A stretch of 64,000 bases of DNA from Arthrobacter sp. YN (GTDB lineage Bacteria > Actinomycetota > Actinomycetes > Actinomycetales > Micrococcaceae). A model generated the notes under the pieces. The model searched no databases, was not told where the DNA came from, and was given only the letters and a program-made list of their open reading frames with translations. Below are positions 4,995 to 25,161 of the stretch, in pieces (the stretch's first letter is position 1; the number at the start of each line of letters is the position of its first letter). Made by a program: the position numbers and the translations under genes. Where the stretch lies: assembly GCF_002224285.1 (NCBI RefSeq), contig NZ_CP022436.1:248001-312000 (forward strand), in the 5' to 3' direction.

Positions 4995-6300
4995 GCTGTC
5001 TGGTGCGCCAAAGGAGCTGCCTATGTCGCCTCGTGCTGGCTTGTGGCCTGTGGAACGGCTTCAGTAAGAGTGAACCGCATGCCCTTTGAACCCAAAGCCC
5101 GGCTCGCGGGCCGCCGCCTACTCGCCACGTTGGTCGGCGCGGCCCTTGCACTGAGCGCCTGCACACCCACCACGGAGAACCCCATGACCGGCTCAAGCAA
5201 TCCCAGCGATCCCGCCACTGTCAAAGCACAGGTAGAAGAACTAAAACAAGCCCTGAAGGATCTCCACGCCTTCAAAACCGAAACCCAAAAAGCCATCGGA
5301 CCCCAGAAATGGGTCGATAAAGGCACCCGAAACAGCGCATGCAATGCAGGTGATGGAAGGGAGGGCGTGAACTACAGCGTCATGAGCCAAACCATGGAAA
5401 CCCTCGACTTGGAAGCTTCAACGGACGTGGTCAAAACGTTCTGGGAATCGAAGGGCTTTACCACCCGCGTCGAAACCAACCCGTTGGACCCTGGCCTCAT
5501 CCGCCTCTACGCCAATCAGAACGGCGGAAACCTCATATCCTTCACCGCGAATGTCAAAGGCTCCGGCCTGGAAATGGATACTGTCTGCATCGCCGGAGAC
5601 CAGACCGCAATCTACAAGGAGCTGTATCCCGAAATTTACGGGACCCCTTCTAGCCCCAGCTCCTCTCCGTCTGCGAAGTAAGCAGTTCGGTGCGCCAAAG
5701 GAACTGCCTATGTCGCGTCGTGCTGGCTTGGGGCCTGTGGAACGGTTTCAGGAAGAGTGAACCACATGCCCTTTGAACCCAAAGCCCGGCTCGCGGGCCG
5801 CCGCCTACTCGCCACGTTGGTCGGCGCGGCCCTTGCACTGAGCGCCTGCACGCCGACCACTACGGAGAATCCCATGAACGGCTCAAGCAATCCCAGCGAC
5901 CCCGCAACCGTCAAAGCCCAGGTAGAAGAACTAAAACAAGCCCTCATGGATCTCCGCGCCTTCAAAAACGAAACCCAAAACACCGTCGGGTCCCAGAAGT
6001 GGGCGGATAAAAGCCTCCGAAACATGGACTGCAGCACCCCTAAGGGAGAAGAGGGCGTGAACTACAGCGTCATGAGTCAGACCCTTGAAACCCTCGACAT
6101 GGAATCGTCGGTCAACGTTGTCAAGACGTTTTGGGAATCCAAGGGCTTCACCACCCGCGTCGAATCAAGCCCAAAGGACCCAGGAAACATCCGTCTCTAT
6201 GCCAATGAGAACGGCGGACATCTCGTATCCTTCACCGCTACCACTAAAGGCTTCAGCCTAGAGATGAACAGCGCCTGCGTCGCTGGGAATCAGCACGAAA
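4461..6300 (+). repeat. Tandem 687-bp gene duplication, three copies
   Basis: The landmark GCACTGAGCG at the lipobox occurs at 4461, 5148 and 5835, an exact 687-bp period both times. The intergenic stretch (GGTGCGCCAAAGGA.CTGCC) is duplicated as well, so whole gene-plus-leader units were copied. Copies 2 and 3 share the N-terminal region almost base for base, and all three diverge in the middle of the mature domain. Confidence 0.92.
5079..5681 (+). CDS. LppA-like lipoprotein, tandem copy 2
   Basis: 200 aa from ATG 5079 (MPFEPKARLAGRRLLATLVG). Twin-arginine-like basic start, hydrophobic core, lipobox LSAC, so it should be lipid-anchored outside the membrane. The mature part has a helical stretch (DPATVKAQVEELKQAL), a conserved Trp (QKWVDKG), a YSVMSQT strand, and two separated cysteines that could pair. 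The C-tail is Ser/Pro-rich. It is nearly identical to copy 1 in the ELYPEIYGTPSS ending. In the mycobacterial LppA family the function is unsettled. Next to a WXG100-like fragment, an immunity or envelope role is an inference. Confidence 0.85.
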   Translation: MPFEPKARLAGRRLLATLVGAALALSACTPTTENPMTGSSNPSDPATVKAQVEELKQALKDLHAFKTETQKAIGPQKWVDKGTRNSACNAGDGREGVNYSVMSQTMETLDLEASTDVVKTFWESKGFTTRVETNPLDPGLIRLYANQNGGNLISFTANVKGSGLEMDTVCIAGDQTAIYKELYPEIYGTPSSPSSSPSAK

Positions 6301-6359
6301 TCTACGAGGAATTGGACAGGCAGGAAGCGAGTGCCAGTCCCTCACCGAGTGCCAAGTAG
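5766..6359 (+). CDS. LppA-like lipoprotein, tandem copy 3
   Basis: 197 aa. ATG 5766 is preferred over GTG 5757 because AGGAAGA (5750-5756) is then properly spaced. The signal peptide is the same as copy 2 up to the lipobox LSAC, followed by CTPTTTENP with one extra Thr. The mature domain keeps KWADKS, YSVMSQT, FWESKGFTTRVE and the cysteine pair, but the C-terminus diverges (ELDRQEASASPSPSAK). It is the most diverged of the three at its 3' end, as expected for an older copy or relaxed selection. Confidence 0.85.
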   Translation: MPFEPKARLAGRRLLATLVGAALALSACTPTTTENPMNGSSNPSDPATVKAQVEELKQALMDLRAFKNETQNTVGSQKWADKSLRNMDCSTPKGEEGVNYSVMSQTLETLDMESSVNVVKTFWESKGFTTRVESSPKDPGNIRLYANENGGHLVSFTATTKGFSLEMNSACVAGNQHEIYEELDRQEASASPSPSAK

Positions 6360-11877: not shown

Positions 11878-11933
11878 GGCCTTGCGTCCGCTATCAAGGG
11901 ATGGACTAGGTGTCGATTTGGTACCGTCGCTGT

Positions 11934-12140
11934 ATGGCAATGAATTGGAGCGTTCCTGAGGACCTTGATCGTCGGCTGGAAAAGTTGGCAGCGGAGGAAC
12001 ACACCTCCAAGTCTGCCCTCCTGTTGCAGGGAGCAGAGATGGTTTTACAGCGGCATGCGCGGCGACGTGAGATCAGTGAAGGCCTTGATTTCGTTACGAC
12101 TCATGATGCTGGGCTGCTGATGCGCCTTGAGGATGCGTAA
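11934..12140 (+). CDS. Ribbon-helix-helix antitoxin
   Basis: 68 aa. The N-terminal ribbon-helix-helix MNWSVPEDLDRRLEKLAAEE with HTSKSALLLQGAEMVL is a CopG/Arc-type DNA-binding dimer. The C-terminal tail (ARRREISEGLDFVTTHDAG) is the part that normally neutralises a Doc toxin. The start at 11934 fits the family N-terminus better than GTG 11910. The gene overlaps the point where a doc start codon would lie. Since the toxin beside it is broken, this is an orphan antitoxin that may still repress its own promoter or protect against related toxins. Confidence 0.8.
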   Translation: MAMNWSVPEDLDRRLEKLAAEEHTSKSALLLQGAEMVLQRHARRREISEGLDFVTTHDAGLLMRLEDA

Positions 12141-12391
12141 CAGCGTACCTGGGCATTGAGGACGCGCTGCAAGTCGTTGGTCGTCGCGGCTTTCATCTTC
12201 GCGATGTCGGCTTGCTGTCTTCGGCGTTGGCCAGGCCAGCCACAACCGTCATGGGCCTCGAGGCTCATCCTGATCTGGCCCTGAAGACAGCTGCATTGGT
12301 GGATCATCCCAGCCAGCCGCCGTCAGTTCATACACGTACAATTCCCTTCATCCCGAAGCACTTGTTAGATGCGAGACTCCCTGAGCCGTGA
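12137..12391 (+). pseudogene. doc: Remnant of a Doc-type (Fic fold) toxin gene
   Basis: The frame after the antitoxin reads TAYLGIEDALQVVGRRGF, HLRDVGLLSSALARPATTVM and GLEAHPDLALKTAAL, the N-terminal half of Doc death-on-curing toxins. Two defects are visible. The codon where the start should be is GTA (12137-12139), overlapping the antitoxin stop as a coupled GTG would. After KTAAL the reading changes to unrelated sequence and stops at 12389-12391, before the family's Fic motif (H-x-x-x-D-G-N-K/R). No kinase activity can remain. The deletion endpoint is near 12296. Confidence 0.8.
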
Positions 12392-12599
12392 CGGCGCCTG
12401 AGTCGAGTTGCGCTAAGGCCCACCCTTAGCCGCTCCAGTTTTCCGCAACCCCTCTTCGTGTCGCCGGCGCTAGGATAGCCGTGCTCGTTACGCGCGACGG
12501 CATACGAAGCGAGGCCACAAGAGCCGCAGCGTCTCTCCATCCCCACGTTCTGCAGGGCTCTTCGGCCCTAGAGGCCCTGTTCAGCGTAGCTCCTTGGCT

Positions 12600-15500
12600 T
12601 CAACTTGCGGCCCAATTCTCACTGGCCGCAATCTCACCAAGCGCCCGAGGCGTGGGTGTGGCGCGACTCAACTGTGACACCGCCGAGTAGATGAACTTTG
12701 CGGGAAACTGCAGCGGCGTCTCCAGGATTTTCCGCGCGGTAGTGTCCGAAAGGTTCTCCCACGACAGTTGCTCATGGTGGTAATTCCATTGCCAAGGAAG
12801 CTCCCCGTCTTCGACCCAGCCAAGATGCTCAAAGTCGGCTACGATAGACCGCCATTGAGACTTGCTTGGTGCAAGGCCAACCGGCTTGAGTATCCACTCA
12901 ATAATCATTGAATGAGTCCATCGAGGAACGGATACTGTTCCCTTTCGAACCATATCCAGGATGCGCTGTTGAGCGAACACGTCACCTCTGATACCGAAGA
13001 TATAAAGGCTTCTGAAGAGACCTTCCGTAGTTAATGCTGACCATTGTTTCTTAAGAGTCCTAAGAGGGCGTGATCGAGGGTTGCTCACGACTGCCCGAGA
13101 GACTAGGTAGAACTGCGATTCTGTCATCTCGTGAAAGGCGGACTGAACATCGTCCATTAGGTCCAGCATCGGTTCTCCTGCCCATACACTCATGTGAAGA
13201 GCCCAGGATTTACGCTCAAGTTCGGTTCCTGCGGCGGCAAATTGTCTCCTCCAGAAATCGGTTCCGTTTGGACGCATCCGAGCAAATCGGACCCGTCGCG
13301 TCAGGGGATGAGACTCGTCGAAGAGTTCACTAGAACCGCCCCCCCTTTGCGTCGAAGACCTGATTCCAGCTGCAATGTTGGCAAGCATATGAGCCGCGAA
13401 TGATTCTGGCTGGCCTTCCATTGCAAGTAGGTCCACTGCCTCTTGCCATGGGCCAAGTTCGTTAGCCAACGAAGGATTCTCCGTCAGTACTGATTCCAGT
13501 GCCTCTAACTTGGCTGCCAATTCTGGCAGCATACGAGCGGACGAAGTCGGCTTCAGGTCCTCTCGGAGGGAGCTGTGATAATCGCTCCGCAGCATATTAT
13601 TCAGATATGCCGGGTTGAGGAGGGCGGCTAAACGCGTCCATTCACCACCGTGACCGGCAAATATGACGTTCCCATTCAAAGCTTCCCCGAGTGCCGATAG
13701 CTGGGCAGCCGGGGCAGCGAGCACCACCGGGCAGCCAGTTGCTACTAACTTCAGGTCAAGATCATCTGCTTCTCGCCAGACGTCTCGTAGGCCATCTATC
13801 TCGTCCATTGATAATTTATCCAGGACACCCAACGCTCTAGCCATTATCAGGTGGGCATTTAGGGTCTCCGGAGTTACGGCACGGGATTGCTCCAGCCACA
13901 TTTCTAGCAATTCGTGCTCGGGGATATGCCTGCGGACTACTCCTGCGACTCCGAGCCCCGGCACTTGGCCTAGACACTTGTAGGCAAAGTCCCCCACAGT
14001 CCTTCCGCCACAGTCATGGGGAAGATTAAGGGAGAAGTCAGCGTACCTCGCCTGAGAACCAACGGATCCGGCGCGAATTGTGAGCTCATCCACCGCAGCC
14101 TTGGCCACTTTACGGGTCCAACTTGGTTGCTGATGGAAGACCCAGTCGCTAAGTAGATTCACACTCAGCTGGCGGTCATAGAGCGGTGTGGTCGAGCGCA
14201 CCCTTTCCAAACGCTCAATCAGCTCAGTAGCTAAGCCAGGGATCTCCCCGACAGAGTAGAAGCCGGCGAAGAATCGCAAAACGTTCTGCCAGTAGGGATT
14301 CTCCATGAGGGCCGACAAAATCTCCGGTTTAGTTCCTGATTCTGGGCGTCCTGGAGGGCTGTAAGGGGCCGTGTGATATAGATGATGAGCCGCGAAATAT
14401 TCACGAAGGGGCTGTACTTCGAATTCGAAGGTGCCCTCAACTCGACTTACTATCGCAACAATTCTCTGGACAATGCCTTGGAAGAGTTCCTCCACGGTGT
14501 CTGTTGGATGGTCACGGCGTGTCAGCCAGTCCTTGATGAGCGTCTGCAATTCGTCTGCCGTAAGACGTCCGTCACCACGTGAAAGTTCCGCATTCGAATG
14601 CATCTTCCATGCTAGATAACCATGAAGATCAATAAGGAGTTGCCGATTGTCTCTCACTACCCTCGTCTTCTCTGCCTCACGGTTGAAAAAGACTTCTATG
14701 TAGCTCTCATACAGGGCCGTCCGCTGATCAGGCAGCGACTGACCTCTTACGTGGATGAGCGACAACAAGATGGTGAGTTGCATGGGGTTTCGCGCCAGGT
14801 CACTGAGGTGCGGCGATTTAATCTTCTCAGCCAGGATTCCAGTCACCTCCTGTTGTTCTTGGGCGGTGAGATTTCGTGCGGATCCCCAGCGCCCAGCATA
14901 TTCCAAGGCAAGCTTATTAGTTATGGATGAAAGTGCGACGTTCGTCCATGTGGCTCGGCTGAACGTTGGGGAGTCTGGCATTGCGCTTGGTCTTGAGGTA
15001 ACAATTGCCTGCACCGATAGTGCGCCGTCCGACAAGCGTACAAGGCCTTTATCAATTTCTTTAACGACCATGGCACGTTGATCCGGTGTGGCAATTTCAT
15101 CGAAACCGTCCAACACTATGACGATTGGGGTAGTCGCTGCCAATTCATGAAGATCACTAACAGAGAACTCCTGTCCACCCGACAGAAAGCGGACCTCCGC
15201 CGACATAAATGCTTCGAGCGACGTCGACAACCCATGCTCGACTTCAGATGATGCCTTACGCGGATCTAACCCATCAATCCAAGACGCAAGATCTCGCAGG
15301 TCAATCCTGAAAGGAATTCTGGTCGGAGTAAGACGATGTGTCGCAGGAATTCGAAGGAGATCATCCTCTTTTGCAAGAAAATGCATTCGGTGGACTTGGC
15401 AGAGATACTGAGCCAGTGTTGACTTACCTTGGCCAGGAGCGCCCTCAACTAGGACACGGGGAAAGCGCTCCGATGTCGTGGGATGTAGAAGGAAGCTCCC

Positions 15501-16316
15501 TGCGGGAAGCGCTGGAACGCCGAAGTAGCCTATATCGCCATGATCAGCCCATGCCTGGATGCTCCAGTGAGCACGCTCGTCGTCCGCATCATCCGTGTCT
15601 CGAAGAATTTCGAAAAGCATCTTTGAAACCGCCCCGCGGGCAGCTTTCGGCATTTCGAGTTGGGGTGGGAGGTCGCCGGGAACATCGATAAATAGATTCA
15701 AGAGGTCGCTCGCCTGCAAATCGGCTTGCTTAAACTTCACGAAGGCATCGATTTCATACTGGGAACGGATGTAGTCTCCCACCGCCTTTGATCGACGCCT
15801 ATTACCCTCTCCGAATCCCGTCTCAAAGAGGCGGCGAACTACATCTGGCGTCGCCAAGATTTCTGAGTAAAACCACTTAAGATCATAATTTCCCGAAAGG
15901 CGAGCATCGAGGTCATCTCGCCACAGAACCTGAACGGGTATATCAAAGTTCTCATGGAGGAGAGTATTGACTCTATCCAAAAGACCAACATCAGCTTTTC
16001 CGGTAGCGGAAATATTGGTTATGAGGCGGTACTCTTCTGCTCCTCGCGCTATGAGCCTATCAATATTGTCTTTCTCATCAAGAATGGCTTTCTTGAGCCA
16101 TGAAAAATGATCCTCTTTTGCGTTAATTTGGCGTTTGAATTTAACCTGAATGACGATAGAGTTCTGGCCACTTTTACCGGGCGCAGTACCGTCTCGTCCG
16201 CCGTCGGCCTGACCCACGGGGAACACTTGATAACCCGGATACTCCTTCACCAGCAGTGCAGAGCAGAATGCTTGGAATCGATCCGGCGTGAACCGCTCGT
16301 AGATGTAGTCCCCCAT
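12600..16316 (-). CDS. Nuclease-NACHT STAND ATPase, predicted antiphage defence protein
   Basis: 1238 aa from ATG 16316. Residues 1-150 form a Mrr-like PD-(D/E)XK nuclease domain: GQADGGRD (35-42) followed by IVIQVKFK with Q57-x-K59. A NACHT ATPase follows, with Walker A EGAPGQGKST (291-300) and Walker B IVLDGFDEIATPDQR (D403, D406, E407). The remaining 650 or so residues are helical, without obvious short repeats, and are the likely sensor. This matches the layout of bacterial NACHT and Avs defence proteins, in which phage recognition triggers oligomerisation and activates the N-terminal effector. Codon choice is visibly more A/T-rich than in neighbouring genes, a sign of transfer. Neighbours are toxin-antitoxin debris and a HerA remnant. 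The trigger is unknown. Confidence 0.88.
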   Translation of the reverse strand: MGDYIYERFTPDRFQAFCSALLVKEYPGYQVFPVGQADGGRDGTAPGKSGQNSIVIQVKFKRQINAKEDHFSWLKKAILDEKDNIDRLIARGAEEYRLITNISATGKADVGLLDRVNTLLHENFDIPVQVLWRDDLDARLSGNYDLKWFYSEILATPDVVRRLFETGFGEGNRRRSKAVGDYIRSQYEIDAFVKFKQADLQASDLLNLFIDVPGDLPPQLEMPKAARGAVSKMLFEILRDTDDADDERAHWSIQAWADHGDIGYFGVPALPAGSFLLHPTTSERFPRVLVEGAPGQGKSTLAQYLCQVHRMHFLAKEDDLLRIPATHRLTPTRIPFRIDLRDLASWIDGLDPRKASSEVEHGLSTSLEAFMSAEVRFLSGGQEFSVSDLHELAATTPIVIVLDGFDEIATPDQRAMVVKEIDKGLVRLSDGALSVQAIVTSRPSAMPDSPTFSRATWTNVALSSITNKLALEYAGRWGSARNLTAQEQQEVTGILAEKIKSPHLSDLARNPMQLTILLSLIHVRGQSLPDQRTALYESYIEVFFNREAEKTRVVRDNRQLLIDLHGYLAWKMHSNAELSRGDGRLTADELQTLIKDWLTRRDHPTDTVEELFQGIVQRIVAIVSRVEGTFEFEVQPLREYFAAHHLYHTAPYSPPGRPESGTKPEILSALMENPYWQNVLRFFAGFYSVGEIPGLATELIERLERVRSTTPLYDRQLSVNLLSDWVFHQQPSWTRKVAKAAVDELTIRAGSVGSQARYADFSLNLPHDCGGRTVGDFAYKCLGQVPGLGVAGVVRRHIPEHELLEMWLEQSRAVTPETLNAHLIMARALGVLDKLSMDEIDGLRDVWREADDLDLKLVATGCPVVLAAPAAQLSALGEALNGNVIFAGHGGEWTRLAALLNPAYLNNMLRSDYHSSLREDLKPTSSARMLPELAAKLEALESVLTENPSLANELGPWQEAVDLLAMEGQPESFAAHMLANIAAGIRSSTQRGGGSSELFDESHPLTRRVRFARMRPNGTDFWRRQFAAAGTELERKSWALHMSVWAGEPMLDLMDDVQSAFHEMTESQFYLVSRAVVSNPRSRPLRTLKKQWSALTTEGLFRSLYIFGIRGDVFAQQRILDMVRKGTVSVPRWTHSMIIEWILKPVGLAPSKSQWRSIVADFEHLGWVEDGELPWQWNYHHEQLSWENLSDTTARKILETPLQFPAKFIYSAVSQLSRATPTPRALGEIAASENWAAS

Positions 16317-16877
16317 GAACGCCTTGTCTCCTTGATACGAAGTGTGATTCCACGATTATGCACCGATTCGGTCGGTCTCTTGGCCCACGTATGACGAGGG
16401 GGGCGCCTACCCGGAGGAGTCCGTCGGTTTCCGGTCGCTGTAAAGCCGTTCCTGAGCCGCAGTCGGGGCAGCCTCCGTGGGCATCGGACGTTCCGAACTT
16501 TTGGCCCAATAGCGTCCAGGCTTCGGTTCGGAGGGGCCAATGCTGACTATCTTCGGTGCATGGCTGCACACAGAGGAAGATCTTGCGTTTGAAGCAGACA
16601 GGTGCGTTATCTATACGGCCCTCCCTGAATTTCGGCGCAACAGTGACTAGTGCTGGGTGACGATCCAAGACCGCCCAACATCAGTGTCCTGAACTGAAGG
16701 GGATCAAGACCCGGCTTGATAATGCCGTAGCCGCTGCTCGGACCGACGGCGCCTCCTGGGATAACATCGGCAGAGAGTTCGGGACCGCACGCCGAGGCGC
16801 CCAGAAGCGCTGGGAGTCCCCGCCCCCTGTGTCTCAGGCTCCATTTCGTTGCCGGCCTCAGAAGGAAAGCAAGGCGT
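16317..16877. other. Intergenic stretch with short decayed coding fragments
   Basis: No complete gene is seen. On the plus strand, about 16699-16815 reads RLDNAVAAARTDGASWDNI then GREFGTARRGAQKRWES, like a helix-turn-helix from a larger lost gene, without a start codon. A 36-codon frame begins at ATG 16541. On the minus strand near 16440-16480 the piece AHGGCPDCGSGTAL has a Cys-x-x-Cys knuckle but no credible gene around it. The region also holds the promoter area for the leftward NACHT gene. Confidence 0.45.
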
Positions 16878-17483
16878 GTGGATCAGATCTTTCAGTTTCT
16901 AATTCAGGGTGAAGCGCCGTGGTGGTCCGCACTCGTCGGGACAGTTGTTGGCGGGTTTATAACTTACTTGACGACCAGGCAAAACGCGAGAGAGCAGCGC
17001 GTGGCCGACCGGATCAAGCATGATGATGAGCGGGTCTTGGTTGATAAGGAGAAATGGCGTGCCGAAACAATCGATCATGTGGCCGAAATGTTGGTTGCAA
17101 ACTACCGGCTCCGTAACCATGTGCTTACCGCACGTAGGGCGATCTTCGCCAGATATCCTGAGTCGCCGCTAGTAGCCGATGACGATAGAATTGCGTTCAT
17201 CAGTGAACTCGAAGACTACACGGAGACGGTGCTTCCTCTGCAGGAAGCTTTGCAGCGGCGTTGGGCAATCTTGCAAATTATTGCGGAGGGCGACTTGGCT
17301 GAGGCCGCTGGTAACCTCTTCCTCAAATTGGCCGACCACCATCCCGAACGCTCAAAGCAGGACTTCCATGAGTCCTTGGACAAAACCTCAAAGGCGGCCG
17401 CGCTGCTGATGCACGTAGCCCAACGAGAACTCGGATTTTCCTTCGGCTCCAGGACCGGGCTTGTGGGGCAATTCGACGGGTAA
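16878..17483 (+). CDS. Membrane-anchored helical protein, unknown function
   Basis: 201 aa from GTG 16878 (MDQIFQFLIQ). One N-terminal transmembrane helix (WWSALVGTVVGGFITYLTT, about residues 15-33) is followed by a basic, mostly helical cytoplasmic domain rich in charged residues. I know no function. Small anchored proteins of this design are common in phage and defence-island DNA. It is divergent from the NACHT gene, with 561 bases between the starts, so a shared function is possible but unproven. Its base composition is lower in GC than the urease genes. Confidence 0.7.
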   Translation: MDQIFQFLIQGEAPWWSALVGTVVGGFITYLTTRQNAREQRVADRIKHDDERVLVDKEKWRAETIDHVAEMLVANYRLRNHVLTARRAIFARYPESPLVADDDRIAFISELEDYTETVLPLQEALQRRWAILQIIAEGDLAEAAGNLFLKLADHHPERSKQDFHESLDKTSKAAALLMHVAQRELGFSFGSRTGLVGQFDG

Positions 17484-17610
17484 AGGCGGGACCCAGAACG
17501 TGACGACCTGGCTTGCGCCAATTCGCCAAATTGATGCTGTTGGTTCGTACTGCTCGCGTTCCTGGCCGCCGTCTATTTCCGTTGCCAGACACAAGCGTGA
17601 GACGCTCAAT

Positions 17611-17885
17611 CTAGCTCTGTGTGCGAGGTTTCCAGCCTAGTACGCACTGTGGTCCGTCAGCCCCAGGCGGACGCGACGGTCTGCGGACTCTGACGGTTAG
17701 GGGAACCGGAGAACCCACACCCATAAAGATCGCTTCTCCAGGAACCAGCCCCGGAAACAACTTCAGTGCCGATGAGTCGAGTTCGGCAGCGGTTTGTTTC
17801 ACACGTCGCCGGTCTCGTCCATCTGCGAGCCGGTGCCCGATCAGCATTCCGACTTGGCTGAGAACACCTGACGGCAGGTCTGCGG
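17611..17885 (-). pseudogene. 3' remnant of a HerA/DUF87-type ATPase gene
   Basis: The leftward frame reads ADLPSGVLSQVGMLIGHRLAD, then DRRRVKQTAAELDSSALKLF, then PGLVPGEAIFMGVGSPVPL and ends WKPRTQS at 17611. This is the C-terminal end of HerA/FtsK-like ATPases of defence and plasmid systems. The nucleotide-binding core is missing. The fragment starts right behind the flavin reductase stop codon, so the break lies between 17886 and 17952. Confidence 0.65.
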
Positions 17886-17952
17886 GGACGCTGGGTAGGG
17901 AGACAGGCCGTGAGTCGGTATCTACGCCCTTCCTTCGCAGTGTTCCGTACAG

Positions 17953-18474
17953 TCAGCCAACCGCCTGCACGCTGCGGAACAGGGTGTGGAACTCCCGGTT
18001 GTGGTAGACCAGCGGGGCTGAATCGGCGGGGCTGAATCGGATATCCACAACGGTTGCGGCCAACAGCACGGAGCCACCCAGTGGTGCCCGATGAACGATT
18101 TCGCACCGCAGCGCCCATGGAGCTTCCCTGAGCAGGGGCTCGCCTGTGGGCAGCAGTTCCCAGTCCATGTCGCTGGTGAAGCGAGGGGCCGTGGGGTCGG
18201 AGAAGGTGCGCACGAGGTCCACCTGGTCCGCGCCCACCAGATGCACGACGATCGTTTGCGCGGCAGCGATATGCGAAGCTGACCGGCCGCCGGTGACGGA
18301 GAACGCCAGCGTCGGCGGATCCACCGCCACCGATGCCACCGAAGACGCCGTGAGCCCTACGGCTCCTTCCGGCCCTGACGCGGTGATGATGGCAACTCCT
18401 GCTGGATGAGAGCGGAAGGCGGCCTTGAAGAGCTCGCCGACCGGCTCTGCCGGCAAGGGGGTGTGATGGGACAT
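17953..18474 (-). CDS. Flavin reductase-domain protein
   Basis: 173 aa of the FMN-binding split-barrel flavin reductase family. FRSHPAGVAIITASGPEGA and GLTASSVASVAVDPPTLAFS are the usual flavin-contacting strands, and HNREFHTLF is near the end. It would reduce FMN or FAD with NAD(P)H or serve as the reductase half of a two-component oxygenase; no oxygenase is adjacent. A MerR/SoxR-type promoter precedes it, suggesting induction by redox-active compounds. Start ATG 18474. The regulator gene is not in the window. Confidence 0.88.
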   Translation of the reverse strand: MSHHTPLPAEPVGELFKAAFRSHPAGVAIITASGPEGAVGLTASSVASVAVDPPTLAFSVTGGRSASHIAAAQTIVVHLVGADQVDLVRTFSDPTAPRFTSDMDWELLPTGEPLLREAPWALRCEIVHRAPLGGSVLLAATVVDIRFSPADSAPLVYHNREFHTLFRSVQAVG

Positions 18475-18565: not shown

Positions 18566-18673
18566 TTCGGGTAAATTCGACCCCCGACTGAGACGAATTG
18601 GAAACGTAGCCGAAACTTCCGCTCCTTACGCTGGTCACATCTGTCACGGACGTGCCACGTACAAGGAGAATCG

Positions 18674-18976
18674 ATGCATCTTTTGCCCCGCGAGCAGGAG
18701 AAACTCATGATCGTGGTGGCTGCCGATCTCGCGCGGCGCCGGCAGGCACGGGGGCTGAAGTTGAACTACCCCGAGGCCGTGGCGATCATCAGCTACGAGC
18801 TCATCGAAGGTGCCCGCGACGGCAGGACCGTCGCCGACCTCATGAGCTACGGAACCACCCTGCTCCGCCGCGAAGACGTGATGGAAGGCGTGCCGGAGAT
18901 GATCCACGACGTCCAGATCGAAGCCACCTTCCCTGACGGCACCAAGCTCGTCACCGTCCACCACCCCATCCGCTAG
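18674..18976 (+). CDS. ureA: Urease subunit gamma
   Basis: 100 aa, normal length. Opens [20 protein letters not shown] and carries [20 protein letters not shown] and the C-terminal VTVHHPIR expected of UreA. It has no active-site residues; it forms the (ABC)3 trimer that hydrolyses urea to ammonia and carbamate. Good AAGGAG ribosome site. First gene of ureABCEFGD, seven bases before ureB. Confidence 0.98.
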
Positions 18977-18983
18977 GAGCCCC

Positions 18984-19337
18984 ATGATCCCCGGTGAATA
19001 CAGGCTCCAGCCCGGTTCCGTCGCGTGCAACAGCGGCCGTGAGGCGGTCGCCGTCGAGGTAGTGAACCGCGGCGACCGCCCCGTCCAGATAGGTTCGCAT
19101 TACCACTTTGCCGAGGCGAACCGCGCCCTGGACTTCGACCGCGACACCGCCTACGGCCGCCGCTTGGACATCCCGGCCGGCACCGCCGCGCGGTTCGAGC
19201 CCGGCGACCGGAAGACCGTGCAGTTGATCGAAATTGCGGGGACGCGCGAGGTCTTCGGGCTCAGTAACGCTGTCAATGGAAAGCTCGACGGCGGCACGCG
19301 CCTCAGTGGGTCTGCTTCAGAAGGAGACGCCAAGTGA
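18984..19337 (+). CDS. ureB: Urease subunit beta
   Basis: 117 aa. Starts [20 protein letters not shown], with [20 protein letters not shown] and [18 protein letters not shown], the UreB beta-barrel core. The acidic/polar tail past GTREVFGL is slightly longer than in many homologues. It stabilises the alpha subunit and contacts the chaperones. Its stop overlaps the GTG start of ureC (19334-19337). Confidence 0.98.
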
Positions 19338-21064
19338 GCTTCGAGGTTTCCCGCAAGCAATACTCCGAGCTGTACGGCCCGACGACGGGCGACGCCATCC
19401 GCTTGGCCGACACCGAACTGTTCCTCGAGATCGAGAAGGACTGCACGGTCTATGGCGAAGAAGTGGTGTTCGGCGGGGGCAAAGTCATCCGCGACGGCAT
19501 GGGCCAGAACGGACAACTGACCCGCTCGGAGGACATCCCGGACACCGTCATCACCAATGTGATCGTGCTCGACTACAGCGGCATCTACAAAGCCGATGTT
19601 GCCCTGAAAGACGGGCACATTTTCAAGATCGGCAAGGCCGGCAACCCCCAGATCGCCGACGGCGTGGACATCGTGATCGGCGCCAGCACGGAGATCATCG
19701 CCGGCGAGCGGAAGATCCTCACCGCCGGTGGCATCGACACCCACATCCACTTCATTTCCCCCGAACAGGTTCCGGCAGCGCTCTGCAATGGCATCACCAC
19801 CATGGTGGGCGGCGGCACCGGCCCGGCCGAAGGAACCAAAGCCACCACCATCACGCCAGGCGCCTGGCACATCTCCAGGATGCTCCAAGCCGCCGAGGGA
19901 CTCCCCGTTAACATCGGCCTGTTCGGGAAGGGCCACGCATCCGCCGTCGAGCCCCTCGCCGAGCAGATCCGAGCCGGCGCCGTCGGGCTCAAAGTGCACG
20001 AGGACTGGGGCTCCACCACCTCGTCCATCGACATGTCCCTGCGCGTTGCCGACGAATACGACGTCCAAGTGGCCATCCACACCGACACCCTCAACGAGTG
20101 CGGCTTCGTGGAAGACACCATCCGGGCAATCGACGGCCGCGTGATCCACACCTTCCACACCGAAGGAGCCGGCGGTGGGCACGCCCCGGACATCCTCAAG
20201 ATCGCCGGTCTGCCCAACGTGCTCCCGGCCTCCACCAACCCCACGCTGCCGTACACGCGAAACACCATCGAAGAGCACCTGGACATGCTCATGGTCTGCC
20301 ACCACCTCAACCCGGACATCCCGGAAGACGTGGCCTTTGCAGACTCCCGCATCCGGGCCGAAACCATCGCCGCTGAGGATGTCCTGCACGATCTCGGCAT
20401 CTTCGCGATCACCTCTTCCGACTCCCAGGCCATGGGTCGTGTTGGCGAAGTAGTGACCCGGACCTGGCAGGTAGCCGACGCCATGAAACGCCAACGCGGT
20501 GTGCTGAAGGACCCGACCGGCGCTGCCCACGGATCTGCCGAATCGGACAACTTCCGGCTCAAACGCTACGTCGCCAAATACACCATCAACGCGGCCATCG
20601 CGCAGGGAATGGCGGATGTGATCGGCTCCGTGGAAGAAGGCAAATTCGCGGATCTCGTCCTCTGGGACCCCGCCTTCTTTGGCGTGAAACCCGAGCTTGT
20701 CATCAAAGGGGGCCAGATCGCCTACGCACTCATGGGCGACGCCAACGCCTCCATCCCCACACCCCAGCCCCGCACCATGCGGCCCATGTTCGCCACGTAT
20801 GGCAAGGCATTGCAGCAGACGTCCATCACCTTCCTGTCCAAAGCAGCGATCGACGCCGGAGTCCCCGCCGAACTCGGCCTCGAACGCATCATCAAACCCG
20901 TCACCGGCATCCGGAACCTCACCAAAGCGGACCTCAAATACAACGGCGAAACCCCGGACATCGCCGTCGACCCCGAAACCTACAAAGTGAGCGTCGACGG
21001 CGTCGAAGTCACCTCCCAGCCCTCCGACGTGCTGCCCATGGCACAGCGCTACTTCCTCTTCTAA
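19334..21064 (+). CDS. ureC: Urease subunit alpha, catalytic
   Basis: 576 aa, standard length. Nickel ligands and catalytic residues are all present: His137 and His139 (DTHIHF), carbamylated Lys220 (AGAVGLK), His249 (VAIHTD), His275 (HTFHTE), flap Cys322-His323 ([10 protein letters not shown]) and Asp363 (SSDSQAMGR). GTG start coupled to ureB. Third positions are strongly C-rich, unlike ureF and ureD downstream. The enzyme is cytoplasmic and needs the UreDFG chaperones and nickel from UreE. Confidence 0.99.
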
Positions 21065-21081
21065 GCCGTTTAGGAAACCAC

Positions 21082-21555
21082 ATGATCATCGAAAAAATCC
21101 TGGGCAACCTCCACGAACAGCCCAACGCCTTCGCCGGGCATCACAAAGAAAAAGTAGTCCTCCCCAGCGCACTGCTGGTCAAACGCATCCAACGCGTCAC
21201 CACCGACCACGGCAAAGAACTCGGCATCCGCCTCCCCACCGGAACCGGCGACCTCCGCGACGGCGACATCCTCGCCATCAGCGACGCCAACCTCATCGTC
21301 ATCTCCGTGCTGCCCACCGACGTCCTGGTGATCGGGCCGCGAAGCATCCACGAAATGGGGGTGGTGGCGCATTCCCTTGGCAACCGGCATTTGCAGGCGC
21401 AATTCTTCGATGCTGCGTCTGAGTACGGGGCCGAGGTCATGGTTTGTCAGTATGACCACACGGTCGAAGATTATCTGAAGAGCGTCGGCGTCCCCTACGA
21501 CAGGCAAGAGCGGGTCATGCCGGTGCCCTTCCGCCATGCTGAGCATTCGCACTAA
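21082..21555 (+). CDS. ureE: Urease accessory protein UreE
   Basis: 157 aa. N-terminal HSP40-like part (EKVVLPSALLVKRIQRV, LRDGDILAISD) and the nickel-binding C-terminal domain with HEMGVVAHSLGNRHLQAQF. The tail HAEHSH gives a short His cluster rather than a long poly-His end. It delivers nickel to UreG. Seventeen bases after ureC. The last third shifts from C/A-rich to G/T-rich codons, the first sign of the composition change that continues in ureF. Confidence 0.95.
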   Translation: MIIEKILGNLHEQPNAFAGHHKEKVVLPSALLVKRIQRVTTDHGKELGIRLPTGTGDLRDGDILAISDANLIVISVLPTDVLVIGPRSIHEMGVVAHSLGNRHLQAQFFDAASEYGAEVMVCQYDHTVEDYLKSVGVPYDRQERVMPVPFRHAEHSH

Positions 21556-21598
21556 TACCGCGGTCATGGTGCCGCACGTAGATGCACGTGGCTGGGGC

Positions 21599-21669
21599 GC
21601 CGTGCCGGGATTTGGGCCGTGCCCGCTTCGCGATGCCCTCCACGCCGCGGCCCAAAATCCCGGCACGGC
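21599..21669. repeat. Palindromic element, family B, between ureE and ureF
   Basis: Long inverted repeat: left arm GCCGTGCCGGGATTTGGGCC (21599-21618) pairs with 21649-21669, differing by one extra A/T pair. The interior keeps GTGCCCG and GCGATGCCC..CCACGCC, also found in the second copy at 23020-23163. Probably an intercistronic REP-like element that could stabilise or attenuate mRNA. Confidence 0.8.
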
Positions 21670-21702
21670 TCCGGCTTTTCGGCTCGCCTCTCGGGGCGGC
21701 TC

Positions 21703-22371
21703 ATGACCTCGTATCAGCTTGCTCTTCAACAGTTGACCGACTCGGCTTTGCCTACGGGGGCGTTTGCTCATTCTTTGGGGTTTGAGAGCTACATACATCG
21801 TGAGTCGGTTTGTGATGAGGTCACTTTTGGGGAGTGGTTGGGTGCTTTTGTGGGGCAGCAACTGACTTATTCGGATGGGTTGGCTATGCGCTTCCTTTAT
21901 GAGGGGGTGGATGTTGGTTTGTTGGATTCTGTTCTTTCCGCGCAGTTGTTGGCTCGGGAGGTGAGGGAGGCTTCGCTCAAGATGGGGGGACGGCTGCTGG
22001 AGATTGGTGGGGAGGTGTTCCCGTCGGGGGAGTTGGAAGCGTATCGGGAGTTGGTTCGTGGGGGTGGGGCCGGGGGGCATCAGCCCTTGGCTTTTGGGGT
22101 CATCGCCCGGTCATGGGGAGTTCCCTTTGAGGCGGCGCTCTCTGCGTATCTGTTTGCCACGGTGACTTCCCTGACGCAGAACGCCGTGCGGGCCATCCCG
22201 CTCGGGCAGAACGCCGGGCAGCGGGTACTTCGCCGGGCGCACGAGGCCGTTGCTGCCGCCGTCCAGGATGTAGCACAGCTGTGCTGGGACGACTTTGGGG
22301 CCGTCAGCCCCGGACTTGAAATTTCACAAATGCGGCACGAAAGGCAACGCGCCCGCATGTTCATGAGCTAG
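21703..22371 (+). CDS. ureF: Urease accessory protein UreF
   Basis: 222 aa from ATG 21703 (MTSYQLALQQLTDSALPTGA). UreF signatures LPTGAFAHSLGFESYI, SLTQNAVRAIPLGQNAGQRV and the C-terminal EISQMRHERQRARMFMS are present. UreF bridges UreD and UreG in the nickel-insertion complex. Codons are unusually G/T-rich (GGG, TTG, GTT), unlike ureC and ureG, though the protein is intact. A longer frame from 21619 reads through the palindromic element and is rejected. Confidence 0.95.
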   Translation: MTSYQLALQQLTDSALPTGAFAHSLGFESYIHRESVCDEVTFGEWLGAFVGQQLTYSDGLAMRFLYEGVDVGLLDSVLSAQLLAREVREASLKMGGRLLEIGGEVFPSGELEAYRELVRGGGAGGHQPLAFGVIARSWGVPFEAALSAYLFATVTSLTQNAVRAIPLGQNAGQRVLRRAHEAVAAAVQDVAQLCWDDFGAVSPGLEISQMRHERQRARMFMS

Positions 22372-22392
22372 CTAGTGCAAAGGACAGAAGAC

Positions 22393-23010
22393 ATGACAGA
22401 ACCCATCAAAATCGGCGTCGGCGGACCCGTCGGAGCAGGCAAAACCCAGCTCGTGGAACGCATCACCCGGCACATGAGCGGCGACATTTCCATGGCCGCC
22501 ATTACCAACGACATTTACACCATCGAAGACGCCAAAATCCTCGCCGCCAACGGCATCCTCCCCGAAGACCGCATCATCGGCGTCGAAACCGGCGGCTGCC
22601 CCCACACCGCCATCCGCGAAGACACCTCCATGAACACCGCAGCCATCGAAGAACTCAAAGCCAGGCACCCCGACCTCCAAGTCATCTTCGTCGAATCCGG
22701 CGGCGACAACCTCTCCGCTACCTTCAGCCCCGAACTCGTGGACTTCTCCGTCTACATCATCGACGTCGCCCAAGGCGAAAAAATCCCCCGCAAAGCCGGG
22801 CAAGGCATGATCAAGTCAGACCTCTTCATCATCAACAAAACCGATCTGGCGCCCCATGTGGGGGCGGACCTGGCCGTCATGGAGAGGGATTCCAAGGAAT
22901 TCCGAGGCAACAAGCCGTTCTGCTTCACGAACCTCAAGACGGACGACGGGTTGGACGCCGTCCTCAACTGGATTCGGCGCGATGTCCTGATGCTTGATCT
23001 GGCGTCGTGA
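22393..23010 (+). CDS. ureG: Urease accessory GTPase UreG
   Basis: 205 aa from ATG 22393 behind AAAGGA. P-loop [11 protein letters not shown] (8-18), metal-binding Cys69-Pro-His71 in [30 protein letters not shown] and the guanine motif NKTD. GTP hydrolysis drives nickel transfer into UreABC. C/A-rich codons like ureC. Twenty-one bases after ureF. Confidence 0.98.
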
Positions 23011-23019
23011 TCGGCGGGG

Positions 23020-23163
23020 CTGCGGCGGCTACGCCGGATTTTGGGCCGTGCCCGTCCCCAGCCGCTCCCAACTCTCGCAAGCTCGAGTCGGGTCCCTCGC
23101 GGCAGTGGGCCCCCCACGATGCCCGCCACGCCGCGGCCCAAAAATCCGGCTCCGCCGCCGCAG
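23020..23163. repeat. Palindromic element, family B, between ureG and ureD
   Basis: Arms CTGCGGCGGC..GCCGGATTTTGGGCC (23020-23047) and GGCCCAAAAATCCGGC..GCCGCCGCAG (23135-23163). It is the second copy of the 21599-21669 element with a longer insert. It overlaps the 3' edge of ureG and ends 22 bases before the ureD start. Confidence 0.8.
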
Positions 23164-23185
23164 CGGTCGAGTCACCAGACGGCCA

Positions 23186-24115
23186 ATGCCTATGAAGACG
23201 CCGGTGCAGGTACCTGTCGGCGGTTCGGCCGCTCGGGAAAATGAAGAGCCTAGCTCCACGTTGGCAATTGGGGAGCGGGCTGTGCGGGGGCGGTTGGAGT
23301 TGGGCATCAGTGTGCGGGGTGGGCGGTCCGTTGCTTCGCGGCAGTTTCATGAGGGCGCTTTGAGGGTGCTTAGGCCGCATTATCTCGATGGGTCCGGGCA
23401 GGTTTGTTATGTGATGGTCAATCCTGGCGGGGCGTACCTGGGGGCCGACCTGTTTGTTGTTGAAGTGGAGGTTGATGCGGGGGCTGAGCTGTTGCTGACC
23501 ACGCAGTCTGCCACGAAGATTTATCGGACTCCGGGGTCGTTTGCTGAGCAACGGATGAGTGTCCGGCTGGGGGAGGGCTCGCGGTTGGAGCTGATGCCCG
23601 ATCAGTTGATTGCGTACCGGGAGGCGAGCTATCGGCAGAATTCGCACCTCAGTCTCCACCCGACGTCGAGCCTTGTCATGGCCGAAGTCATTACGCCGGG
23701 GTGGTCGCCGGACGGCGCGTCCTTCAAGTACGAAGAGGTCCGGCTGCGGAATGAGATCTGGATTGAGGACCAAAGAGGCGCGACATTGTTGGCCCTCGAT
23801 AACCTGCTGATTCGCCCACCCGTCAACGACGTGACCGGGATGGGGTTCATGGAGGGCTTCAGCCATCTGGGGTCGTTGGTGGTGGTGGACCCGCGGGTTG
23901 ATCAGGGGCTTGCTGATGACCTGGACCGCATATCCCGTGATTTTGAGGCGTACACGGGAGTTTCCTTGACGGCGACTATTGCCGGGACTACCGGGCTTGT
24001 GCTGCGATCGTTGTCCAACAGCACTGAGGAACTCAACACATTGCTGGGTGTTTGCTCCGGCGTCCTGCGGGAACGTTGGTACGGGCAGGGACCCTTGAAC
24101 CTGAGGAAGTACTAA
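23186..24115 (+). CDS. ureD: Urease accessory protein UreD (UreH)
   Basis: 309 aa from ATG 23186; ATG 23192 is an alternative. UreD features: GALRVLRPHYLDGSGQVCYV, VNPGGAYLGADLF, LLLTTQSATKIYRTPGS, LMPDQLIAYREASYRQ. It is the scaffold binding UreC during nickel insertion. Like ureF it has G/T-rich codons. Its stop overlaps the transporter start (TAATG at 24113-24117), so urease and nickel uptake are translationally linked. UreD in last place is a common actinobacterial order. Confidence 0.95.
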   Translation: MPMKTPVQVPVGGSAARENEEPSSTLAIGERAVRGRLELGISVRGGRSVASRQFHEGALRVLRPHYLDGSGQVCYVMVNPGGAYLGADLFVVEVEVDAGAELLLTTQSATKIYRTPGSFAEQRMSVRLGEGSRLELMPDQLIAYREASYRQNSHLSLHPTSSLVMAEVITPGWSPDGASFKYEEVRLRNEIWIEDQRGATLLALDNLLIRPPVNDVTGMGFMEGFSHLGSLVVVDPRVDQGLADDLDRISRDFEAYTGVSLTATIAGTTGLVLRSLSNSTEELNTLLGVCSGVLRERWYGQGPLNLRKY

Positions 24116-25161
24116 TGACTGCGCTGACCGAGTTCGCCACCATGTACCGGGAGCGGGAGACGTTGTCCCTGCGGACCAGGCTGCTGTTCACGTTTGGTGC
24201 CGTCGCCGCGTTGCACGTTGCCGCCGTCGTGCTGTTGCTTGCGGGTACGGCAGGAGATGCGCAGCCGCTGGCGCTGGGACTGGTGGTCACCGCATATGTG
24301 GCCGGCATCAAGCACAGCTACGACTGGGACCACATCGCCGCGATCGACAACTCCACGCGCAAATTCGTGGCGCAGCACAAGGATCCGGTGAGCGTGGGGT
24401 TTGCGTTCAGCCTGGGCCACAGTTCCGTGGTGATCCTGGCGGGGCTCTTGGTGGTGGCGGGTGCCACGTTGATTGGGCAGTTCATGGAGGACGGCACCAC
24501 AGGGAACAAGGTGCTGGGCTTGATCGGCAGCGGTGTCTCCGGGCTGTTCCTGTTGGCGATGGGGCTGTTCAACGGCTCCGCGTTCGTCCGCGCCACACAG
24601 GTTTACCGAAGGGTGCAGGCCGGCGGAGAAGTGCGCCACGAGGACCTCGAAGCGAGGGGTTTCGTGGCCCGCCTGCTCGCCAAGCCACTGTCCAAAGTGG
24701 AGCGGCCACGGAACATCTACGTCATCGGTTTCCTGTTCGGGCTCGGGTTCGACACCGCCACCACCATCGGGCTGCTGGTCATCACCACGACGGCGTCACT
24801 CGCCGGTGTTTCACCGCTAGCCTTGATGGCCCTCCCGCTCGCGTTCACTGCCGCGATGACCCTGTGCGATTCAGTCAACGGCGTGGCCATGATGAAGATG
24901 TACACATCAGCTATTCACAACCCGCGGCGCAAGCTCGGCTTCAACGCCGTCATCACCGGCATCTCGGCAGTCTCGGCGCTGTTCATCGCGGTGATCACGC
25001 TGGGTGGGTTCGTGAATTCCGCGTTTGAGCTCGAGGACCCTCTGACCTCGTGGCTCGGCGGCATTGATCTTGGCGACGCCGGCCTCATCCTGGTGGGCCT
25101 GTTTGTGGTGGCGTGGGCCGTATCAGCCTGGCGTGGCCGGGTAGCTCGCAGCGGTCGCTAG
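24115..25161 (+). CDS. Nickel/cobalt transporter, NiCoT family
   Basis: 348 aa from ATG 24115. Eight or so membrane helices. The family signature HX4DH is His67-SYDW-Asp72... read as KHSYDWDHIAAIDN, followed by SLGHSSVVILAG and FGLGFDTATTIG later. It supplies nickel for urease, given the one-base overlap with ureD. Nickel versus cobalt preference cannot be read off. The 3' end overlaps the convergent serine hydrolase gene by four bases. Confidence 0.95.
   Translation: MTALTEFATMYRERETLSLRTRLLFTFGAVAALHVAAVVLLLAGTAGDAQPLALGLVVTAYVAGIKHSYDWDHIAAIDNSTRKFVAQHKDPVSVGFAFSLGHSSVVILAGLLVVAGATLIGQFMEDGTTGNKVLGLIGSGVSGLFLLAMGLFNGSAFVRATQVYRRVQAGGEVRHEDLEARGFVARLLAKPLSKVERPRNIYVIGFLFGLGFDTATTIGLLVITTTASLAGVSPLALMALPLAFTAAMTLCDSVNGVAMMKMYTSAIHNPRRKLGFNAVITGISAVSALFIAVITLGGFVNSAFELEDPLTSWLGGIDLGDAGLILVGLFVVAWAVSAWRGRVARSGR

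Follow-up and report, generated by a model that had tools for sequence, protein, structure and literature searches.

A nuclease-NACHT protein of Arthrobacter sp. YN, a probable NLR-type immune receptor from a family with valine in place of the winged-helix histidine

Among described systems, the architecture nearest to that of the gene considered here is found in bNACHT25 and bNACHT32, which reportedly belong to clade 6 of the bacterial NACHT proteins in the 2023 Cell study by Kibby et al. Avs proteins also follow a tripartite plan, with an N-terminal nuclease and a C-terminal sensor. The gene in question lies in a 64,000-nucleotide stretch of DNA from the soil bacterium Arthrobacter sp. YN (contig NZ_CP022436.1, positions 248,001 to 312,000; the whole stretch is called the window below) and encodes a protein of 1,238 amino acids that combines a predicted nuclease with a NACHT module and a helical C-terminus. 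According to the bNACHT25/32 report (PMC12169576), these two proteins consist of an N-terminal PD-(D/E)XK DNase, a central NACHT domain and a C-terminal sensor; infection causes DNA degradation, and the nuclease mutant D48A loses protection. The same source describes that changing histidine 506 (H506) of the bNACHT25 NACHT domain to leucine causes autoactivation.

In NLRC4 and NLRP3, which are animal NOD-like receptors (NLRs), a highly conserved histidine of the winged-helix domain (WHD) faces the α and β phosphates of bound ADP, as described in PMC9633759. The effect of changing this residue is not uniform, because the NLRP3 His-to-Arg form keeps its ATPase activity and shows lowered signalling, whereas the His-to-Asp form has lowered ATPase activity and may be hyperactive; NLRP6 naturally carries a negative charge at this position (PMC9633759). 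NAIP-like NACHT proteins are defined by the winged-helix motif FhHxxhQE[YF]hxA (Leipe et al., as cited in PMC12258605), and NACHT proteins that lack it form a recognised class, termed TLP1-like, in the same paper.

The 1,238-residue protein is probably a single-gene bacterial immune receptor of the NLR type. This reading rests on the following findings: the predicted nuclease is intact, the NACHT module is complete and its domains follow the NLR order, the helical C-terminus diverges fast, the gene is under purifying selection, and it sits in a foreign insert that is absent from a same-genus relative. The gene and its parts are laid out as follows:

12600..16316, minus strand: whole gene, a solo PD-(D/E)XK nuclease-NACHT-helical sensor protein of 1,238 amino acids (open reading frame [ORF], Pfam, protein search and alignment)
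15822..16316, minus strand: predicted Mrr-like PD-(D/E)XK nuclease effector, residues 1-165 (alignment, Pfam and secondary structure)
16191..16205, minus strand: DGGRD, residues 38-42, acidic catalytic motif (alignment of 180 relatives)
16140..16148, minus strand: QVK, residues 57-59, catalytic Q-x-K motif (same alignment)
15465..15821, minus strand: linker, residues 166-284, with the conserved motif FKQxDLxxxxLLxLFIDVP (outline common to HNH-type relatives)
14877..15464, minus strand: NACHT nucleotide-binding domain (NBD), residues 285-480 (Walker A at 15417-15446, Walker B at 15096-15113)
13947..14876, minus strand: helical domain HD1, WHD and helical domain HD2, residues 481 to about 790
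14403..14417, minus strand: VQPLR, residues 634-638, winged-helix motif, where NAIP-like NACHT proteins carry His
12603..13946, minus strand: all-helical, fast-diverging C-terminal sensor, about residues 791-1238 (predicted structure and dN/dS)
16328..16332, minus strand: AGGAG ribosome-binding site, 11 nucleotides 5' of the ATG (read from sequence)

The ORF begins with ATG and its reading frame is intact. The original prediction had listed this ORF together with four motifs, and all of them are borne out: GQADGGRD at residues 35-42, QVK at 57-59, EGAPGQGKST at 291-300 and LDGFDE at 402-407. NACHT is the sole Pfam model that reaches its own cut-off in the protein (residues 288-479; 32.2 bits against a cut-off of 26.7). 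Conservation was assessed by aligning the 180 proteins that three protein searches had listed. Aspartate 38 is kept in 169 of the 169 rows that have a residue there, and D42, Q57 and K59 are each kept in all 168 covering rows; Walker A residues G292, G295, K298, S299 and T300 and Walker B residues D403, D406 and E407 are invariant (180/180). The motifs are thus not a product of chance, since the NACHT model scores above its cut-off and conservation across the relatives is strict. Most of the first 149 residues are missing from 11 of the 180 rows; the opening 60 residues of these rows suggest truncated or late-start entries and not another effector. Residues 1-165 have an alpha/beta secondary structure, and the domain is predicted from its active-site motif to be a PD-(D/E)XK DNase; Pfam Mrr_cat is matched in 4 of 32 relatives (best expectation value [E] 9.5e-4) and not in the protein itself. 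The NCH1 domain (PF22728, included in Pfam-A), a feature of bNACHT clade 6, had no match in the protein at E up to 1, a divergent fold being possible, and the families shown for the 32 relatives at E up to 0.5 (25 of 30) did not include it. Genome searches with NCH1 gave 0/1 in the organism's own genome and 1/296, below the cut-off, in the phylum; in the former the controls were also silent, so by itself it is uninformative. Promoter-like sites (3 against 2.5 expected) and terminators (6 against 5.4 expected) were found at chance level.

The WHD of the protein departs from the NAIP-like pattern, a point absent from the original prediction. Its segment FEVQPLREYFAA aligns to the NAIP-like motif free of gaps and differs from it in three places: Glu, Val and Arg replace the motif's h, His and Gln, respectively. 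In particular, V634 (at the His position), Q635 and R638 are invariant in all 180 family members. A wider comparison comprised 40 rows, of which 32 were non-His (the family, nearer relatives with GG[RIH]D...QVK, three HNH types and a sister PD-(D/E)XK group with GGRE...Q[AS]K) and 8 were more distant actinobacterial NACHT proteins. The position is occupied by Val in 27, Leu in 3 and Ile in 2 of the non-His rows, and by His in 8/8 of the outgroup. In a tree of the 40 rows, the His and non-His labels separate on one branch with support of 100/100; this split is clean, yet it does not demonstrate a single loss, because the tree carried a warning that the joining of His and non-His rows may be a long-branch effect, and was rooted at its midpoint. 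Among 30 actinobacterial NACHT loci, the WHD motif was recognised in 6, namely five with His, which are also in the tree, and the Val of the window's own protein, while the remaining 24 were unscored for the pattern. Separately, a profile of 7 His-type bacterial NACHT proteins matches NLRPs in the nucleotide-binding part, and the stretch that pairs NLRP F-[IV]-H with the bacterial motif is not significant alone.

From these data, Q635 and R638, invariant in the family, emerge as candidates for a resting-state lock. R638 was rejected as a stand-in for the histidine across the whole non-His lineage; it cannot serve all members, because it is absent from 7 of the 32 rows (6 Gln, 1 Ser). The sister group carries Arg at 635. 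This group (loci L104-L108 and L114) has a GGRE...Q[AS]K PD-(D/E)XK site and the winged-helix pattern GF[ES][LIV]RSxQE[FY], which is without histidine. H506 of bNACHT25 may occupy the position of V634, as the authors' citing of the NLRC4 autoinhibition paper suggests, the two being compared by description only. If they do coincide, the residue found naturally throughout the lineage is hydrophobic, like the leucine that unlocks bNACHT25. We put forward, tentatively, the possibility that a large, cosmopolitan lineage of NLR-type nucleases from bacteria has lost the 'sensor 2' histidine of the WHD, which faces ADP in animal NLRs and occurs in other bacterial NACHT proteins, and locks its rest state otherwise, with an effector that is swapped (two PD-(D/E)XK types and HNH) and a helical sensor that diversifies fast for new triggers; it would be a natural counterpart of the bNACHT25 His-to-Leu mutant that is nonetheless held off. 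Among the papers listed by a literature search, judged by their titles and abstracts, none deals with bacterial loss of this histidine, and unreported status is not claimed.

Swapping of the effector was seen directly in the comparison: in 3 of the 40 rows, an HNH domain replaces the PD-(D/E)XK domain before the same linker and NACHT core, as expected of a modular effector. The carriers are two actinobacterial plasmids and one genus genome. All three HNH types show the pattern C-x4-C...AHI...EN...C-P-T-H-H, and Pfam HNH_2 is above its cut-off in one of them (L010) and below it in two. The plasmid-borne genes, on Arthrobacter and Rhodococcus plasmids (L112:2668-6096 and L113:2695-6165), have as neighbours Abi and HsdR (type I restriction) genes and a SIR2 gene; these neighbourhoods are likely to be mobile defence clusters.

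The family is large and patchily distributed. A search of 5.8 billion proteins yielded 7,992 candidates, at least 925 of them relatives at E ≤ 0.001; 109 of the 120 relatives listed are 1,200-1,290 amino acids long, and residues 280-700 alone as a query gave 2,142 relatives. Within the genus, any match occurs in 22 of 198 genomes and a near full-length ortholog in 3 of 198, the organism's own included; within the phylum, the family profile matches 13 of 296 genomes, again including its own, several of the matches being short. When genomes of 84,980 species were scanned with two peptide patterns, 88 relatives from many phyla were found and 80 kept. The records that contain members bear the names of actinobacteria, cyanobacteria, proteobacteria, Bacteroidota and Chloroflexi, among other groups. 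Relatives were found in 41 of 72,556 plasmid records and 2 of 50,697 phage records, none spanning 80% of the query. Some genomes carry more than one: an Arenicellales genome (OY282380.1) has two family members (L054 and L063) about 18 kb apart, and a contig that equals in length the atrazine plasmid pTC1 of Paenarthrobacter aurescens TC1 (L115; 328,237 bases) has two or more NACHT relatives in a span of 20 kb (G076:C2:86879-89785 and 104237-106423), among them one whose frame runs to 1,451 codons and whose match to 538-774 is repeated.

Structure prediction of the C-terminus, proposed in the original prediction as a check against NACHT and Avs sensors, was run on residues 480-1238 and yielded a mean predicted local distance difference test score of 90.9, with the C-terminus modelled as an ordered all-helical array. 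Residues 481-790 of the model fold like the HD1-WHD-HD2 part of animal NLRs, the best structural matches being NLRC4, NLRP3 and NOD2. Foldseek also matched the antiphage STAND protein Avs3 (8dgc_B) at E 8.6e-5 with low template modelling (TM) scores of 0.21/0.10. The C-terminal 650 residues had been described as unassigned; that length shrinks to about 450, since residues 481-790 correspond to HD1-WHD-HD2, and the description holds for the rest, for which Foldseek found no match in the PDB at E ≤ 0.001. The 50 rows listed for the sensor have E of 0.02-0.25 and query TM of 0.11-0.20 and are mostly alpha-solenoids (integrator, transportin, CAND1 and armadillo types). A guess at class level would be that the sensor is also an alpha-solenoid. 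A second structure aligner barely covered the region beyond model residue 403, and a new fold is therefore not claimed. At the level of profiles, the family had no match in the PDB better than E 0.029 and no NLR among its matches.

The sensor is also the fastest-changing part of the protein. Against the 84% ortholog, the ratio of nonsynonymous to synonymous substitution rates (dN/dS) is 0.06 for the whole gene (dS about 1.5 and so close to saturation), which places it under purifying selection. By region it is 0.037 in the nuclease, 0.024 in the linker, 0.031 in the NBD, 0.032 in residues 481-790 and 0.119 in residues 791-1238, values that are approximate, coming from one ortholog pair with dS of 1.4-1.8. 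Identity of the sensor to orthologs P0002-P0007 falls through 0.73, 0.59, 0.53, 0.52, 0.39 and 0.32, against 0.71-0.92 for the NBD and WHD/HD2. A protein search with the sensor only returned 5 proteins, the query's own included, for which the word prefilter is as much a cause as divergence; full-length alignments do span the region in other relatives. A sensor that tracks variable ligands would be expected to change in this way, and relaxed constraint would look alike. The phage trigger of the family may be new, as had been supposed.

The gene is carried by an insert with the following features:

11878..17983, no strand: 6.1-kb insert with the gene inside, GC content 55.2% (flanks 62-63%)
11940..12140, plus strand: CopG-type ribbon-helix-helix antitoxin ORF of 66 amino acids (Pfam RHH_1, E 5e-5)
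12137..12391, plus strand: truncated Doc (death-on-curing) remnant (weak in Pfam, E 0.067)
16692..16815, plus strand: plasmid gene fragment, helix-turn-helix-like by eye (Pfam below cut-off only)
16878..17483, plus strand: ORF of 201 amino acids with a hydrophobic N-terminus, membrane-anchor-like by eye (ZapG-like below cut-off)
17623..17889, minus strand: C-terminal remnant of a HerA-type ATPase (PADLOC HerA, E 1.8e-18; Pfam HerA_C, E 0.085)

The gene itself has 53.0% GC, with third-position GC of 0.536 against 0.839 for nearby ureC. When 18 other genomes were searched for the left-flank gene, 5 had it, one by a 25-base match only. Of four loci fetched, one from the same genus (G008, L097) keeps the order of the two flanks, which lie 48 bp apart, and the other three (L098-L100) match in the left-hand gene only. 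DNA similarity to the locus of the nearest (84%) ortholog, in Arthrobacter sp. 9V (L011/L101), covers 12584-16369 and thus the gene alone, so the gene moved by itself. By its similarities the insert is a mosaic of plasmid-like pieces, comprising CopG/Doc, the plasmid gene fragment and the HerA-type remnant. The CopG/Doc pair has 77.7% DNA identity to Paenarthrobacter plasmid genes, the fragment at 16692..16815 has 71-76% identity to 6 Paenarthrobacter/Arthrobacter plasmid records, and 17702-17938 has 70% DNA identity to a Rhodococcus plasmid ATP-binding protein gene; the Doc debris and HerA fragment noted earlier beside the gene are thereby confirmed. The 201-residue ORF was rejected as a conserved partner, being matched in 4 of 150 genus genomes, its own included. 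Outside the insert, the flavin reductase gene differs from that of the relative at its insert-side end, and directly to its right lies a urease cluster by eye (18644-25161) with a nickel-transporter-like ORF. Farther off, two adjacent, related lipoprotein-like ORFs of 212 and 200 amino acids stand in tandem on the plus strand (5043-5681 and 5757-6359), an arrangement that suggests duplication.

Taken with the precedent of bNACHT25/32, the domains suggest how the protein might work. In the uninfected cell it would be held off in an ADP-bound form. The helical C-terminus would sense either a product of the phage or a host protein that infection has disturbed; the NACHT module would then exchange nucleotide and oligomerise, and the clustered N-terminal nucleases would cleave the DNA of the host, the phage or both, which would end the infection, probably through cell death (abortive infection). 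Because the WHD His is Val throughout the family, something else probably keeps the protein off, for instance the conserved WHD residues Q635 and R638 or packing of the sensor on the NACHT module. The domains, their conservation and their mobility are observed; the proposed sensing, oligomerisation, cleavage and protection are deduced from the domain content and by analogy with bNACHT25/32.

How the trigger is perceived could differ from direct binding of a phage protein. A guard arrangement, in which the sensor watches a host factor, is a serious possibility, though we lean away from it: bNACHT25 needs DnaJ, and its activating coat protein was not found bound to it (PMC12169576), whereas a sensor that changes at dN/dS 0.119 against about 0.03 elsewhere (one pair, dS nearly saturated) fits direct, variable ligands better. 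The target might also be plasmids or other mobile DNA in the main. The excess of plasmid over phage records among the relatives and the plasmid-like pieces of the insert speak for this, yet phage-defence genes are commonly carried on plasmids. Since, moreover, the characterised nuclease-NACHT proteins stop phages (PMC12169576), we consider a chiefly anti-plasmid role unlikely. STAND proteins are reported to include regulators such as MalT (PMC10427625), so that a developmental or stress-related regulator or cell-death switch with no antiviral role is conceivable; the strict nuclease active site, the HNH swap, the patchy gain of the gene alone and the IetS, GajA and AriA models near relatives make it quite improbable. 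That the gene was inserted and is now inert or in decay, like the Doc and HerA remnants beside it, is scarcely credible: the flanking pieces are broken and promoter-like sites are at chance level, but 1,238 open codons, all catalytic motifs, a low dN/dS and a plausible ribosome-binding site contradict it.

Several observations weigh against the immune-receptor reading or its details. When the ORFs around the gene at 90 loci (the window and L002-L090) were clustered, no group other than the protein itself occurred in more than 7 loci; with no conserved partner gene, there is no guilt by association beyond a loose neighbourhood. PADLOC-DB 2.0.0 gave no model above noise for the protein itself. 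The WHD change could stand for a change in ATP turnover instead of another kind of lock. Near relatives, 109 PADLOC models were matched among the 131 nearest ORFs against 19 among 106 distant ones; these are redundant models and not distinct proteins, many of the 25 shown being GajA, and the far control lies only 6.5-10 kb away. With IetS, GajA and AriA among the models, this excess lends soft support to a defence role. On balance, the receptor reading agrees with the original prediction of a horizontally acquired nuclease-NACHT protein with adjoining defence debris and a probable antiphage function. The further claim of that prediction, of an undescribed system, is not supported: the PD-(D/E)XK-NACHT proteins bNACHT25 and bNACHT32, which cut DNA and thereby protect against phage, are published (PMC12169576), and several family members already bear the label 'NACHT domain-containing protein' in public databases.

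If the proposal is true, a big branch spanning many phyla is added to bacterial NLR immunity, and one NACHT core that drives three nuclease types offers a ready comparison. Moreover, a rest-state lock without a residue that is regarded as important to the inflammasome receptors of animals would make the question of the NACHT off state testable in bacteria.

Compared with known systems, the architecture itself is a known plan, and the gene alone is one more example of it as phage defence. Of the features of bNACHT proteins as a kind, the protein has the central NACHT module, and it has the N-terminal effector and C-terminal sensor region as architecture only. With Avs it shares the tripartite plan, and Foldseek matches it to Avs3 at low TM; it differs in length, the Avs3 chain having 2,004 residues against 1,238, and no Avs model matched it at E up to 1 in PADLOC-DB 2.0.0, a library that presumably includes such models. 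From the animal NLRs NLRC4, NOD2 and NLRP3 it differs in having a nuclease for CARD/PYD, a helical sensor that is not of the leucine-rich repeat type, and Val for the sensor 2 His. The HNH-NACHT proteins of actinobacterial plasmids (WP_255257223.1 and WP_149357560.1; about 1,150 amino acids) share with it a NACHT core of 32-34% identity, the linker outline and the winged-helix motif VQSLREYFAA, and differ in their HNH effector. With bNACHT25/32 the protein shares the whole three-part plan, the nuclease-dependent DNA degradation shown there being predicted here, and differs in having no Pfam match to NCH1 at E up to 1 and in carrying Val at the WHD His position against H506 of bNACHT25, by published description only. 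What appears distinctive, relative to bNACHT25/32 rather than to the full list of bNACHT clades, is that the whole lineage has lost the WHD histidine and that its effector is swapped.

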